From positions 1 through 64,000 of the forward strand of contig CANIBZ010000004.1 of assembly GCA_947466425.1 (NCBI GenBank): a stretch of DNA of 64,000 nt, read 5' to 3'. A model generated the notes under the pieces. It ran no database searches and was not told where the DNA came from. It saw only the letters and a list, made by a program, of their open reading frames with translations. The DNA is from Flavobacteriales bacterium (GTDB taxonomy: Bacteria; Bacteroidota; Bacteroidia; Flavobacteriales_D; Sanyastnellaceae). Below, in pieces: positions 5,558-36,023 of the stretch; position 1 is the stretch's first letter; every line of letters begins with the position of its first letter. The position numbers and the translations under genes were made by a program.

Positions 5558-6004
5558 GCCCTGCGGGCGAATGTTGCGTAGCAACTAATGTGCAAGCACG
5601 AATGTTGCGTAGCAACGAATGTGAAAACACGAATGCCTTCGGCGAATGTCTTCGACTCGTTTAATTACGGAGTAGGCATAAAACCGAAGGTTTTCCAATA
5701 ATGAAATTCCAGAGCCCCTTAGGGCGACATCCGAACTGCCCCCAGCAAAGCTGGGGGATAAAGGTTGAGATGAGAGATAATTTCAAGCTATAAGGGCTAA
5801 CAAAAAAAGAGCTCCTACTTGTGTGTAAGAGCTCTCTTTAGATTTTTCTCCCCCAAATGTTAATATTGGGAAATTACTTTTGCAGGATTTTCTTATTTGA
5901 CATTTCTCCCCCAGCTATCGGGAGAAAGAAACGTAGTTCAAACAACGCAGTTCCAATTATGAAATAGGAATTACGAAGTAGGAATAAAACCGAAGGTTTT
6001 CCAA
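5558..6004. repeat. 447-bp hairpin- and repeat-rich spacer between convergent glyS and ddl
   Basis: No gene is visible. From left to right: GCCC-TGC-GGGC at 5558-5568; two direct copies, 31 bp apart, of GTTGC-GTA-GCAAC (5573-5585 and 5604-5616) flanked by GAATG; a GAATGCCTTCGGCGAATG fragment; a 36-bp repeat at 5663-5698 (34 of 36 bases identical to 5969-6004); hairpin GCCC/GGGC at 5714-5725; CCCCCAGC-AAA-GCTGGGGG at 5739-5757; the ddl terminator at 5802-5836; TTTCTCCC/GGGAGAAA at 5903-5927; and the reverse complement of 151-171 at 5955-5975. The last repeat ends exactly at the ddl stop codon. Confidence 0.75.
5802..5836 (-). terminator. probable terminator of ddl
   Basis: Arms AGAGCTC (5808-5814) and GAGCTCT (5829-5835) with a 14-base loop. 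On the reverse strand the stem is followed by seven T residues (A-run 5802-5808), typical of a Rho-independent terminator. It lies about 170 bp past the ddl stop codon. Confidence 0.55.
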
Positions 6005-17296: not shown

Positions 17297-18748
17297 ATGA
17301 CTCTACGCTCTCGCATATACGTATCACTTTTTTCAATCATTGTAATCTCTTTCATTGCAACGGGAATTGTAGCCGCGTTCGATCATTACGAACACGACAT
17401 TACTTTCAACGAAGAGCGGATTGCGGAAAAAGAAAAATCCATTCGCGAATCTCTCAATTATTTGCTTCTTCAAAACGGAGGTTATATCCACGCCGATTCC
17501 ATTTCAATGCTTTTGGGCGATAAGGTCTGTGAGCTTTCTGAGGTCAACAATCTTTTTATTACAATCTATGATTTGAATGGAAGGTATCTCGTTTCCATGA
17601 ATTCAGACACGGCAGATTACAAAAAAATTCCAATGCAGTTGAACGGTGATCTTACCAAACAAATTACATCTTCAACAAAAGAGAAAGCCATCATTCTTCC
17701 GTCAGAAACAAATCCCACTCAAAATTTGGCCTATTGGTGTTTCAGCGACTTTCACGGAAGACCGCTTGCTTTGGTGGGAATGCTATATGAGAAAAAAGAA
17801 GTCGAAAAAGCGAAACTTTGGAACTTCATGAAAGAGATTGGAAAAACATACATCCTAATTTTTATTGTAGCAGGAGCCATTGCGTTTTTAATTACCCGCG
17901 ATTTCACTAGATCGCTCAAGAAACTTAGCGACAGCATCAATCATTTGAAACTTGGAAAAAAGAATGAGACGTTAGAGTGGAAGAGCAACGATGAAATTGG
18001 ACAACTTATTCAAGAGTACAACAGCATGCTGTTTCAGTTGGAAGCCAGCGCCGACAAGCTTGCGCAGCAAGAACGGGAAACAGCTTGGCGCGAAATGGCA
18101 CAGCAGGTTGCACATGAAATAAAAAATCCGCTTACGCCCATGAAGCTTCGCTTGCAACATTTGCAGCGTTCGTGGCAAGACAATCCGGAAGAATTTCAAA
18201 CCCGACTCAACGATTTCGTGCAAAGCATGACCGATCAAATAGACACGCTTTCTCACATTGCGCAAGAGTTTTCCAACTTCGCAAAAATGCCGCAGTCGAA
18301 AAATGAAAGATTGAATCTTCAAGACATAGTGAAGTCGGTAATCACCACTTTTGAAAATGAGAATCAGACCATTTCATTCTTTCAAAATAAATCTGAAACA
18401 GCGTTTATTCATGGAGACAAATCACAAGTCATTCGCGTGCTGAACAACCTTATCACCAACGCTATTCAATCCATTCCAACCGACCGCACGAAAAAAATAT
18501 CGCTCGGTTTACGCTTTTCGATAAATCATGTGACTATAAAAATCACCGATAACGGAAACGGAATTTCGCCCGAAATTTCGAAGCGTATTTTCATGCCGAA
18601 TTTCACTACACGCAGCACCGGCAGTGGACTTGGTTTGGCCATGGTAAAGAGTATTGTGACTCAGATGAATGGAAAAGTTGCGTTCAGAACACGTGTCAAC
18701 GAAGGAAGTTCCTTCTTCGTTATTCTTCCATTAGATCAAAAAGCATAG
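17297..18748 (+). CDS. membrane sensor histidine kinase, NtrY-like architecture
   Basis: 483 residues: membrane segment 1 (about 9-28), a periplasmic sensor domain of about 160 residues, membrane segment 2 (about 186-202), a HAMP linker (RSLKKLSDSINHLKLG), a dimerisation/phosphoacceptor helix (QQVAHEIKNPLTPMKL, His in HEIKNP) and a GHKL ATPase domain with N box (LNNLITNAIQSI), G1 (ITDNGNGIS) and G2 (STGSGLGLAMVKSI). No response regulator is adjacent, so its partner is unknown. It follows the barrel gene by 3 bp and its 3' end overlaps the convergent cyclase gene by 29 bp. Confidence 0.93.
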   Translation: MTLRSRIYVSLFSIIVISFIATGIVAAFDHYEHDITFNEERIAEKEKSIRESLNYLLLQNGGYIHADSISMLLGDKVCELSEVNNLFITIYDLNGRYLVSMNSDTADYKKIPMQLNGDLTKQITSSTKEKAIILPSETNPTQNLAYWCFSDFHGRPLALVGMLYEKKEVEKAKLWNFMKEIGKTYILIFIVAGAIAFLITRDFTRSLKKLSDSINHLKLGKKNETLEWKSNDEIGQLIQEYNSMLFQLEASADKLAQQERETAWREMAQQVAHEIKNPLTPMKLRLQHLQRSWQDNPEEFQTRLNDFVQSMTDQIDTLSHIAQEFSNFAKMPQSKNERLNLQDIVKSVITTFENENQTISFFQNKSETAFIHGDKSQVIRVLNNLITNAIQSIPTDRTKKISLGLRFSINHVTIKITDNGNGISPEISKRIFMPNFTTRSTGSGLGLAMVKSIVTQMNGKVAFRTRVNEGSSFFVILPLDQKA

Positions 18749-19649
18749 GTCTGCTCGGAGCCGCATCGTTCGCGAAATTCGAAACCTGCAGATTCAAAAT
18801 ATAATCCCCGTCTGAAATTTCATTCGGAACGTAAATCAACTCTGTAATCGTTTTCTGAAAGTTCGGCTCTGCCGGAACATTCCAAAACAAATGATGCGCA
18901 GCCAACGCTCCGCCGTCTTCCTCGCGATCTACACTTGGAAGATCTACCAACAAATGCTGAACACCCGCATCAACAATACGCTGCATAGCACCCAATGTTA
19001 AATACGGAAAATTCGTTCCGGAATATTGTCTATTCGTTTTCGAATGATCATTCGGTTTTGTGCGAATAATAAGCGCTTCAACATTCAAATCAAACCCCTC
19101 TAAACTATCTTCATCAACCACCCAATCCCCTTGCGAAGCAACGGTTTCAAGATTCTGCGAAAGGTCCTGCGGAAGGTCTTGCGAAGCAACGGTTTCAAGA
19201 TTCTGCGAAAGGTCCTGCGGAAGGTCTTGCGAAGCACCTGTTTCAAGATTCTGCGAAAGGTCCTGCGGAAGGTCTTGCGAAGCACCTTTCGCAGAACCTT
19301 GCAAAGCACCTTGCATAGCATCTTTTCTTCTCAACTCCAATGTTATCACCTTCGCAAAAAAATGAGAAGAAGAAATACTGTTCACCACGGGAACATCCGT
19401 ATCAATGATATGTCCCACATTCTCGGTATGCGTGCCATGTCCATGCGGATTGAAATACACGTCGCGAAAATTCACTGCCCCGCCTTCCGCCACAGAACCC
19501 AAGAACTGTTCGGTGCGAACCGGCTCTATACGCATGGGTTCTACATACCAAGCTCGCGGACCTTTTGGATTCATAGAGATGCTCAAATCCATTCCTTTTT
19601 CGGTTTGAAATGAATAGCGTCGCCCGTCTTTTTCCAGCGTTAGTTTCAT
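18720..19649 (-). CDS. cyclase family metal hydrolase (KynB-like) with an internal tandem-repeat insertion
   Basis: The fold and the signature HGTHTENVGH (residues 71-80) match the cyclase/kynurenine-formamidase family (PF04199), whose metal site is HxGTHxDxPxH; here Glu-Asn replaces the Asp region. The later parts (ALIIRTKPND, VQHLLVDLPSVDR, HHLFWNVP) also fit. Unlike the usual chain of about 210-260 residues, it has 309, because residues about 111-173 are a low-complexity insertion containing three 16-residue copies built from [SP]Q[DN]L. The insertion comes from a 48-bp DNA repeat (19131-19274). Substrate unknown. The gene overlaps the sensor kinase 3' end. Confidence 0.85.
   Translation of the reverse strand: MKLTLEKDGRRYSFQTEKGMDLSISMNPKGPRAWYVEPMRIEPVRTEQFLGSVAEGGAVNFRDVYFNPHGHGTHTENVGHIIDTDVPVVNSISSSHFFAKVITLELRRKDAMQGALQGSAKGASQDLPQDLSQNLETGASQDLPQDLSQNLETVASQDLPQDLSQNLETVASQGDWVVDEDSLEGFDLNVEALIIRTKPNDHSKTNRQYSGTNFPYLTLGAMQRIVDAGVQHLLVDLPSVDREEDGGALAAHHLFWNVPAEPNFQKTITELIYVPNEISDGDYILNLQVSNFANDAAPSRPMLFDLMEE
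19131..19320. repeat. 48-bp tandem repeat inside the cyclase gene
   Basis: Three 48-bp units start at 19131, 19179 and 19227. A degenerate fourth runs from 19275 to about 19320. Each unit is itself mostly three 12-bp subunits of the form GxTxCTGCGxAA (GATTCTGCGAAA, GGTCCTGCGGAA, GGTCTTGCGAAG) plus CAACGGTTTCAA. The length is a multiple of three, so the reading frame is kept. The 13-mer GATTCTGCGAAAG also occurs in the intergenic repeat at 23579-23591. Confidence 0.92.
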
Positions 19650-23241: not shown

Positions 23242-23579
23242 TGAACATAGAAGATTTTTTCGAAACATGTCAAGCCATTAGTGAAGAGGTAACGTCTGAT
23301 TTACCCTTCAGCGAAAGCGCGTTGGTTTTTCGAATTGAAAATAAAATCTTCGCCATGGTAGATTTAGATGATTTCGAAAAAGGAATCAATCTAAAATGCG
23401 ATCCTGAGCGCGCCATTGAACTTCGTGAAGAATACAACGGCATTCAACCCGGCTATCACACCAACAAAAAGCACTGGAACCTCGTCATTCCAAACAGCGA
23501 CGTTCCCGATAAATTATTGAAAGAACTTGTTCAACACAGCTTCAACCTGGTTAAACCGAAATCAAAGAAGAATAAATAG
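23241..23579 (+). CDS. MmcQ/YjbR family protein
   Basis: 112 residues from ATG 23241. The pattern matches MmcQ/YjbR (PF04237): MNIEDFFETCQAI, ESALVFRIENKIFAMVDLD, INLKCDPERAIELREEY, IQPGYHTNKKHWNLVI and a C-terminal helix. These are small cytosolic, cyaY/YjbR-fold proteins, possibly DNA-binding, of uncertain role. The start overlaps the upstream PorP/SprF stop by one base, so its expression is coupled although function need not be shared. The frame back to 23193 lies inside the upstream gene and is rejected. Confidence 0.9.
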   Translation: MNIEDFFETCQAISEEVTSDLPFSESALVFRIENKIFAMVDLDDFEKGINLKCDPERAIELREEYNGIQPGYHTNKKHWNLVIPNSDVPDKLLKELVQHSFNLVKPKSKKNK

Positions 23580-23735
23580 ATTCTGCGAAAGATGCTTCGC
23601 AAGAACGCTTCGCGTAAATTTCTTCCAACGGATCTTGTAATTACATCTTTCGAAGAATCTTGCGGAGCATCTTGTGAATACATCTTTCGAAGAATCTTGC
23701 GGAGCATCTTGTAATTACATCTTTCGAAGAATCTT
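23579..23735. repeat. intergenic repeat array, 37-bp units, between yjbR-like gene and folA
   Basis: 23579-23591 (GATTCTGCGAAAG) matches the coding repeat in the cyclase gene. From 23643 a 37-bp unit (ACATCTTTCGAAGAATCTTG at its start) is repeated at 23680 and, partly, at 23717; the copies are nearly identical and contiguous, with no unique spacers, so this is not a CRISPR. The third copy runs into the folA stop codon (23734-23736). A degenerate related stretch (CTTCGCAAGAACGCTTCGCG) precedes the array. Confidence 0.9.
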
Positions 23736-34670: not shown

Positions 34671-34700
34671 GTCATCCCGAAGGGTCATCCCGAAGGGTCA
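34671..34700. repeat. 13-bp tandem repeat at the rodA stop codon
   Basis: GTCATCCCGAAGG is repeated exactly at 34671 and 34684. A third partial copy (GTCATC, from 34697) runs into the rodA stop codon (34701-34703, reverse TGA). The 111 bp to its left up to the SBBP gene's start hold that gene's putative promoter and nothing else recognisable. Confidence 0.8.
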
Positions 34701-36023
34701 TCATCTAAAGATGCTGAGTCGCTCCGCGTCCAATCGGATCATAATGAAAAGTAGAATCGTAAACGCCATAAGCGAAGATCCGCCGTAGCTGAAGAAGGGA
34801 AGAGGAATACCTATGATTGGAGCCAAGCCGAGAACCATTCCAATATTAATGAGCAAGTGCATGAATAAAATGGCCGCCACGCAATATCCGTATACACGAG
34901 AGAATTGTGAGCGCTGTCGTTCAGCCAATGCCACTAATCTATATATAAGAGCAAAGAACAAGAGTATTACAGCAACACTTCCAACAAACCCCCATTCTTC
35001 GGCAACTGCACTAAAAATAAAGTCGGTCCATTGCTCCGGAACATAGTTATTCTGAGTCATTGGACCTTGGTGGAAACCTCTTCCGAAAAAACCACCCGAG
35101 CCTACCGTAATCTTGGCCATCTCCGAATTGTAGGTTGCGTCTTCGCGCTCAACAGGCAACGAAAGCATAACATAAATTCGTTCTTTGTGGTGCTTTTCAA
35201 GCACGTTGTCTACAATGTAATTAATGGAAAACGCAAGAGTCGAAGCTAAGATTAACGATATAACGGTAACCGAATAAAGCATTCTTCTCGATCGCGGAAC
35301 AACAAAATTCCGAACGAAAATCAAAGCAAGTATGGCCAATCCAAAAAGCGAAATAATAAACGTCCAAATAGAACTCATCTCTCCGAAATAAGGATAGGTC
35401 GTTCGCCCTGCACCAATAACAATACTCAGTGTTCCAATAACCACACTTGCGAATCCGGCAATAAGCACATTGCCAGACATGCCTTCACGATACATGACCA
35501 AGATGAATGCAAGGAACGTTAACAATGATCCCACATCGGGTTGAAGTAAAATTAAAAAGGCGGGAAGTCCAATAATCGCAAACGCTTGAATACGCATGCG
35601 CAAGTTTTTTAACTGCAATCCAGAGCTGGAAATAAATTTCGATAGAAAGAGTCCAACTCCAATCTTAGAAAATTCACTCGGTTGAATACCAAAATCACCA
35701 ATACCAAACCACGCCTTTGCCCCGTTCACTTCCTTTCCAATTACCAATACCAACATCAATAAAAGAACAAAGAAGAGGTATATGTAAACTGCTAACTTGT
35801 TAAAGACTTCAGCGTCGAGATAAAGAATTACCACAATTAAAAATATACATGCACCTATCCAAACCAGCTGCTTTCCATACTCTTCGGAAAAGGCAAACGG
35901 ACTGGGAAGAAGGGGGTTGTATGCCGCGCTGTAAATAGTCATCCAGCCGAACAGAACCAACGTGCCATAGAGCGCAATCGTGCCCCAATCGAGTTGTAGA
36001 TTCTGTTTCCCCGTCGCTACCAT
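34701..36023 (-). CDS. rodA: peptidoglycan polymerase RodA (SEDS family)
   Basis: 440 residues, about ten membrane segments. SEDS glycosyltransferase that polymerises lipid II for cell elongation together with PBP2. Family features include the FGIQPSEFSKIG segment (SEDS Glu/Ser motif), LILLQPDVGSLLTFLA (catalytic Asp region, QPDxG) and the C-terminal IGIPLPFFSYGGSS. The start at 36023 overlaps the mrdA stop by one base (TAATG). The longer frame to 36128 lies inside mrdA and is rejected. It is the last gene of the mre operon. Confidence 0.97.
   Translation of the reverse strand: MVATGKQNLQLDWGTIALYGTLVLFGWMTIYSAAYNPLLPSPFAFSEEYGKQLVWIGACIFLIVVILYLDAEVFNKLAVYIYLFFVLLLMLVLVIGKEVNGAKAWFGIGDFGIQPSEFSKIGVGLFLSKFISSSGLQLKNLRMRIQAFAIIGLPAFLILLQPDVGSLLTFLAFILVMYREGMSGNVLIAGFASVVIGTLSIVIGAGRTTYPYFGEMSSIWTFIISLFGLAILALIFVRNFVVPRSRRMLYSVTVISLILASTLAFSINYIVDNVLEKHHKERIYVMLSLPVEREDATYNSEMAKITVGSGGFFGRGFHQGPMTQNNYVPEQWTDFIFSAVAEEWGFVGSVAVILLFFALIYRLVALAERQRSQFSRVYGYCVAAILFMHLLINIGMVLGLAPIIGIPLPFFSYGGSSLMAFTILLFIMIRLDAERLSIFR

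Follow-up and report, generated by a model that had tools for sequence, protein, structure and literature searches.

Tandem arrays of covarying 12-bp mini-hairpins between and within genes of one Flavobacteriales genus

Introduction

What is a translated tandem repeat doing in the middle of a recognizable enzyme, and how did it come to be there? The question is raised by a KynB-like gene in the window, i.e., the whole 64,000-nucleotide stretch of Flavobacteriales DNA analyzed here (contig CANIBZ010000004.1). The initial annotation of this DNA, made from its letters alone, described a 12-bp-based tandem repeat inside the gene and related intergenic sequence, and suggested one expanding repeat that had landed in a tolerated loop.

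Results and Discussion

The Array in the kynB-like Gene

The host gene (18720-19649, minus strand) encodes a 309-aa KynB-like cyclase/metal-dependent hydrolase, recognized from its ORF, the Pfam Cyclase family (PF04199, E-value 2e-10) and an AlphaFold2 model. Between core segments of the protein lies the tandem array (19130-19324, minus strand; approximately residues 111-176), delimited by TRF, an element search and AlphaFold2 pLDDT and read in frame as the peptide KDAMQGALQGSAKGASQ[DLPQDLSQNLETGASQ]n. TRF reports a 48-bp period at 19130-19284 (3.2 copies, 98% matches, score 296), along with sub-periods of 12 and 24 bp and an extra 12-bp array at 19274-19324, so the repeat inside the cyclase gene is real. 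The three 48-bp higher-order repeats of the initial annotation (19131-19178, 19179-19226 and 19227-19274, minus strand) were recovered, and on the plus strand they include the elements AGATTCTGCGAAAGG and AGGTCCTGCGGAAGG, with three copies each (19150-19272). What had been called a decayed fourth copy is rather a series of four different 12-bp units (19273-19323, minus strand), all of them intact mini-hairpins (TGC-TTC-GCA, TTC-TGC-GAA, TGC-TTT-GCA and TGC-TAT-GCA); on the coding strand they read GATGCTATGCAA, GGTGCTTTGCAA, GGTTCTGCGAAA and GGTGCTTCGCAA, each with a perfect 3-bp stem. The sequence TTGCGAAGCA was counted six times in the window (0.25 expected), and the exact 11-mer CTTGCGAAGCA has 51 genomic occurrences, compared with 2 when the control is its reversed form.

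The KynB-like host has a conserved metal-site region, HxGTH, of which HGHGTH is invariant across 27 sequences, and the best Foldseek matches of its AlphaFold2 model are the kynurenine formamidases 4co9, 4cog and 4cob. By fold and metal-site motif, the host gene is thus a kynurenine formamidase-like cyclase, with the hydrolysis of N-formylkynurenine as its candidate activity. The modeling proposed in the initial annotation placed the insert in a loop: the core is confident, and residues 114-160, located between the strands 96-105 and 176-178, have pLDDT values below 50. The array is therefore predicted to form a disordered, surface-exposed loop insert in KynB, and the inserts of the other enzymes described below would presumably be exposed as well.

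A Covarying 12-bp Unit

The unit has 12 bp and is composed of a 3-nt spacer, AGR, and a 9-nt mini-hairpin with a 3-bp stem and a 3-nt loop, following the pattern AGR, stem TNN, loop and complementary stem N'N'A. Examples of the stems include TGC-TTC-GCA, TGT-TTC-ACA, TTC-TTC-GAA, TCG-TTC-CGA and TCC-TGC-GGA. Units were collected as runs of 12-mers defined by the linker and end bases only (GRT.......AR), which gave 806 units of 158 types and fixes the T-A pair at positions 3-11 by definition. When all 66 position pairs were tested, pairs 4-10 (82% vs. 35%) and 5-9 (75% vs. 44%) were the most complementary beyond permutation (0/5000 each). For the 40 commonest unit types, an independent pair counter found 97.5% of cells paired, and the covariation score was 0.625, compared with 0.185 ± 0.035 for shuffled sets (0/500) and at most 0.226 for slid controls. 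The arms are kept complementary through compensating changes, one of the marks by which template-switch hairpins are recognized.

An unbiased scan of all 3-nt spacers singled out AGA (424 vs. 4 in the control) and AGG (249 vs. 4), the next best having 42 vs. 10. Loop inversion, which template switching can also leave behind, was looked at in TGC-stem loops, 12 of 25 of which have their reverse complement present, a count read without a control. Inside coding sequence, codon 3 ends in a base that tracks the second base of codon 2, also within synonymous choices (29/32 vs. 15.3 expected, 0/5000); serine, for instance, is encoded by TCG after GCT (Ala) but by TCA after GTT (Val). Such synonymous covariation is not predicted by protein selection alone and points to DNA-level causes.

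Restriction of the Family to One Genus

A 190-bp array query matched the draft genome (2.59 Mb) at 47 places, and the family was likewise recovered from the relatives that were screened. A 485-kb genus sample, picked around array matches, contains 812 elements with 3-nt loops, compared with 5 with scrambled arms; 200 kb of other genera had 2 elements against 5 in the control, which is background. Among 61 genomes sampled from the family, the same query matched the five members of the genus, together with one marginal match in another genus, and across 150 genomes from the order, a query composed of common units matched four members of the genus, together with one 26-bp match elsewhere. The mini-hairpin family is genus-specific. 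Another genus (genome G019) has an array of the 14-bp repeat ATTCGCAAAACCTG at one locus, whose likeness is superficial, with no obvious mini-hairpin.

Two ideas were set aside. The tandem pattern was not found in viral contigs, and a viral vector was rejected on this ground. The heptamer GCGAAGC has a raw count of 31 in the window against 9; however, once both window arrays are taken out, an order-3 Markov model does not rank it with the top 7-mers, so genome-wide enrichment of the isolated heptamer beyond the arrays is not claimed.

The same distribution bears on the view of the initial annotation in its simplest form, namely that the kynB array is an ordinary minisatellite grown by local slippage and that the other loci are of independent origin. 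The clean 48-bp higher-order repeats and a copy number that varies among relatives agree with it; however, a single family of units fills dozens of loci in this genus and is confined to it within the order as sampled, and compensating arms are not a product of plain slippage, which leaves this explanation quite improbable. A single expanding repeat landing by chance in kynB is an incomplete account, its place being taken by a genus-wide mini-hairpin family found in approximately 18 gene groups.

Arrays Inside Other Genes

The arrays sit between genes, some of them upstream of genes, and also within genes, including at least ten recognizable enzymes. The hosts supported by Pfam are Cyclase, GT2, acetyl-CoA synthetase (acs, AMP-binding plus _C), the shikimate dehydrogenase N-domain (aroE), CoaE, Peripla_BP_2, PGM/PMM, DUF4846, Por_Secre_tail, AA_kinase (probably aspartokinase-like, judging by its sequence context), Ppx/GppA, GH3 and an Alg9-like mannosyltransferase. 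With several lipoproteins and unnamed proteins, the hosts total approximately 18 gene groups, a grouping that is our own reading. At one locus (L031:2049-2978), a 336-bp tandem repeat lies downstream of a mini-hairpin array, and the ORF that holds the array encodes a protein with a Por_Secre_tail domain.

In our count over the 18 gene groups, codon position 1 holds the palindrome center in 17, position 2 does so in 3 and position 3 in none. The position-1 peptides (DASQ, DSAK, GRSE, DLPQ) have four residues per unit and no Trp, and nearly all the peptides from in-gene arrays are hydrophilic. Arrays in position 3 would read basic or hydrophobic (MLRK, LRSI), and the ORFs with such arrays seem to represent extensions that are upstream or non-coding. 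The use of a single codon phase throughout was refuted by the position-2 arrays in GH3, mannosyltransferase-like and periplasmic-binding-like proteins. The hydrophilic phase and the frame kept in genes, together with the 13-nt units of the intergenic window array, argue that protein selection filters in-gene arrays, which are apparently tolerated because their in-frame reading gives floppy surface loops.

Turnover between Species

Core proteins are 89-96% identical among genomes G000, G001, G003-G006 and G008, and only approximately 62% identical in G007. The same loops of kynB, GT2, acs and aroE range across these species from zero or one unit up to approximately 22, with differing content, keeping in mind that all the genus genomes are draft assemblies and that copy numbers may be mis-assembled. 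In kynB there is no unit in G006 and G007, one in G005, approximately 6-8 in G003 and G008, and 48-bp repeats in G000, G001 and G004, the unit of G001 and G004 being that of the window array. Copy number therefore varies among relatives, and the fixed number that would mark an old conserved domain was not found. The GT2 gene has one unit in G001 and approximately 22 in G000, and the unit types differ between species; the GT2 match in G007 is shorter, without a reported array. No array is present in acs of G004, G006 and G007, and it is filled in G000, G005 and G008, while aroE has none in G004 and G007 and is filled in the others read. For G007, the lack of an insert in kynB, acs and aroE comes from direct reading.

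Because these patterns of presence conflict between loci, gains, losses or exchanges must recur, and turnover is rapid: G001 and G005 form a sister pair (support 1.0), yet one has the 48-bp array in kynB and the other a single unit. The kynB and GT2 series also show what defines an intragenic VNTR, i.e., in-frame tandem units with a copy number differing among relatives. Unrelated loci have more ordered multi-unit blocks in common than shuffling yields in G004 (37 vs. 7.3, 0/500) and G000 (21 vs. 10.1, 2/500), and in G003 block sharing between unrelated loci is not above chance. In the G003 assembly, kynB is found at the ends of two contigs (C118 and C90) with unit-level differences, which suggests strain variation within the sample.

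Small hairpins are the substrate of Y1/RAYT-type enzymes, and a transposase of this sort, such as the REP-associated Y1 (RAYT/TnpA), could in principle mobilize the arrays as non-autonomous elements. Genes for Y1_Tnp are present in four of the nine genomes, including the source genome; however, they are lacking in the array-rich G003 (96% complete), no array adjoins the transposase loci examined, and the kynB, GT2, acs and aroE orthologues have neither target-site duplications nor a fixed element end. The terminal inverted repeats and target-site duplications that define MITEs were likewise not found when near-empty and filled sites of these four genes were compared by eye. A Y1/RAYT transposase was rejected as the driver on account of its presence in only four of nine genomes and away from the arrays, and transposition of this kind is very unlikely.

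Could the peptides themselves be what is selected, expansion being driven by loop tuning, oligomerization or partner binding? Such adaptive inserts would account for the repeated occupation of the same loops and for the nearly constant use of the hydrophilic phase. However, neither content nor length is conserved, one peptide is common to unrelated enzymes, and the synonymous covariation lies at the level of DNA, so that an adaptive origin is highly improbable.

The Intergenic Array and Folding

The related intergenic sequence reported in the initial annotation is present at 23578-23735 (minus strand), in addition to the many other places in the genome. By TRF, its sequence and its elements, it is a second array of the mini-hairpin family with a 37-bp higher-order repeat. 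It includes 13-nt units with 4-nt loops (TGT-ATTC-ACA and TGT-AATT-ACA), which would disrupt a reading frame. One alternative for the genes, that the inserts never reach the protein, either skipped by the ribosome, as in the byps of mitochondria, or removed from the mRNA, finds a precedent in the palindromic elements of Magnusiomyces capitatus mitochondria, which are bypassed in translation (as cited in PMC6649704), and in the very presence of hairpin elements within genes. However, bypassing needs neither a kept frame nor a preferred hydrophilic phase, both of which are observed in genes, with 13-nt units in the intergenic array, and this alternative is scarcely credible.

Of the arrays folded as DNA, only the intergenic one does better than shuffles (z of -3.5); the others, including coding ones, show no such advantage when taken whole (z of 0.1, 0.8 and 0.0), so the hairpins would act singly or weakly, if at all. 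A search of the window for known RNA families returned none.

The main rival to the origin proposed below is that a host protein binds the mini-hairpins, in DNA or RNA form, and that selection acts on them as binding sites, with expansion in genes as a side effect. The strong stem covariation and constant AGR spacer would be expected under selection on structure, and arrays are found upstream of genes as well. However, the presence, number and order of units shift fast at the same sites between close species, both orientations occur in genes, and 3-bp stems are only marginally stable; bound sites are thus possible, though fairly unlikely.

Other small palindromes were noted in the window. Between genes at 5562-5660, varied small hairpins (GTTGC-GTA-GCAAC, GTGC-AA-GCAC, GTG-AAAA-CAC, GCC-TTC-GGC and GTC-TTC-GAC) are separated by GAAT; the string looks like a second spacer family, and the whole stretch does not fold above shuffles. 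At 34671-34745, CCC-GAA-GGG and CATC-TAAA-GATG have TCAT between them, a 4-nt spacer with 11 occurrences vs. 0 in the control of the genus sample. Also, 72 bp starting at window position 31 recur as an exact inverted copy in a distant part of the genome (L087, from 11883), unrelated to the mini-hairpins.

Proposed Origin of the Arrays

Here, the arrays are considered, as the somewhat favored explanation, to be genus-specific selfish or neutral tandem mini-hairpins, presumably with no function for the host. Units would multiply locally by slippage or unequal recombination, giving the 24-, 36-, 48- and 60-bp higher-order repeats. During replication, one stem arm would serve as the template for the other (quasipalindrome template switching), which would keep the two complementary; selection on the hairpin may or may not contribute. 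The formation and upkeep of complementary arms have been ascribed to template switching (PMC8794818), which has been reported in the coding DNA of yeast too (PMC8604942). Multi-unit segments may sometimes be copied from one locus to unrelated loci, the probable route of spread. Protein selection would then remove in-gene arrays that disrupt the frame, read basic or hydrophobic, or hit structured parts, and the survivors in genes would be hydrophilic, disordered surface-loop inserts such as that of the KynB-like enzyme.

A bolder and unlikely version is that 9-nt, AGR-spaced DNA mini-hairpins are recognized by their structure and actively copied to new sites by a putative dedicated enzyme, even into the interior of essential metabolic genes, which would give core enzymes new disordered loops throughout the genus and would represent an undescribed system.

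The arrays offer a minimal unit, a 9-nt hairpin, together with sites that can be compared in a near-empty, a single-unit and an expanded state. With these, and with synonymous codons that betray a DNA-level force, it becomes possible to test if template switching suffices to maintain compensating stems, and by what route conserved enzymes acquire new disordered loops. A caution also follows, since covariation within genes need not imply a functional RNA.

Comparison with Known Systems

No prior description of such repeats in Bacteroidota was found in the open-access literature searched. Rickettsia and Wolbachia provide the best-known cases of selfish palindromes inside coding genes. Their palindromic elements lie in unrelated metabolic genes with the frame intact, are solvent-exposed in modeled proteins and occupy the same sites in relatives (PMC3767692; PMC10969869). 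The present arrays resemble them in frame-keeping insertion in approximately 18 unrelated gene groups, with exposure modeled for KynB alone; judged by description, they differ in being 12-bp tandem mini-hairpins of variable number and order, with covarying 3-bp stems, in Flavobacteriales, whereas Rickettsia elements have 100-150 bp (or approximately 150 bp).

To our knowledge, stem covariation is not a feature of ordinary VNTRs, each of which belongs to a single locus. Bacterial intragenic VNTRs are similar in their unit length, a multiple of three, and in-frame changes of copy number, and the mini-hairpins differ in that one unit family extends across dozens of loci.

The PARCEL repeats are also tandem, dyad-symmetric coding repeats of variable number that are dispersed within genomes (PMC2996958), as the mini-hairpin arrays are. 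According to their description, however, their motif spans 25 residues, includes a highly conserved Trp and occurs in ORFs without assigned functions, often membrane proteins, of distant taxa (PMC2996958), while the units here have four residues, no Trp, named enzymes as hosts and a single genus. Similarly, REP/REPIN-RAYT systems have small hairpins scattered in a bacterial genome, REPs being, by description, palindromes of 20-40 bp, most with a GTAG or CGTC tag (PMC3733652); those of the present family have 9 nt, AGA/AGG spacers and a tandem arrangement, occur also in genes and have no link to a Y1 transposase.

Finally, nematomorph mitochondria keep inverted repeats within coding sequence, as single coding palindromes of up to 284 bp (PMC6649704), and template-switch hairpins have stems for which creation and maintenance by template switching is proposed (PMC8794818), as it is here. 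The former are single mitochondrial repeats and the latter stems of RNA genes, whereas the arrays of this genus are tandem, bacterial and built from 12-bp units.
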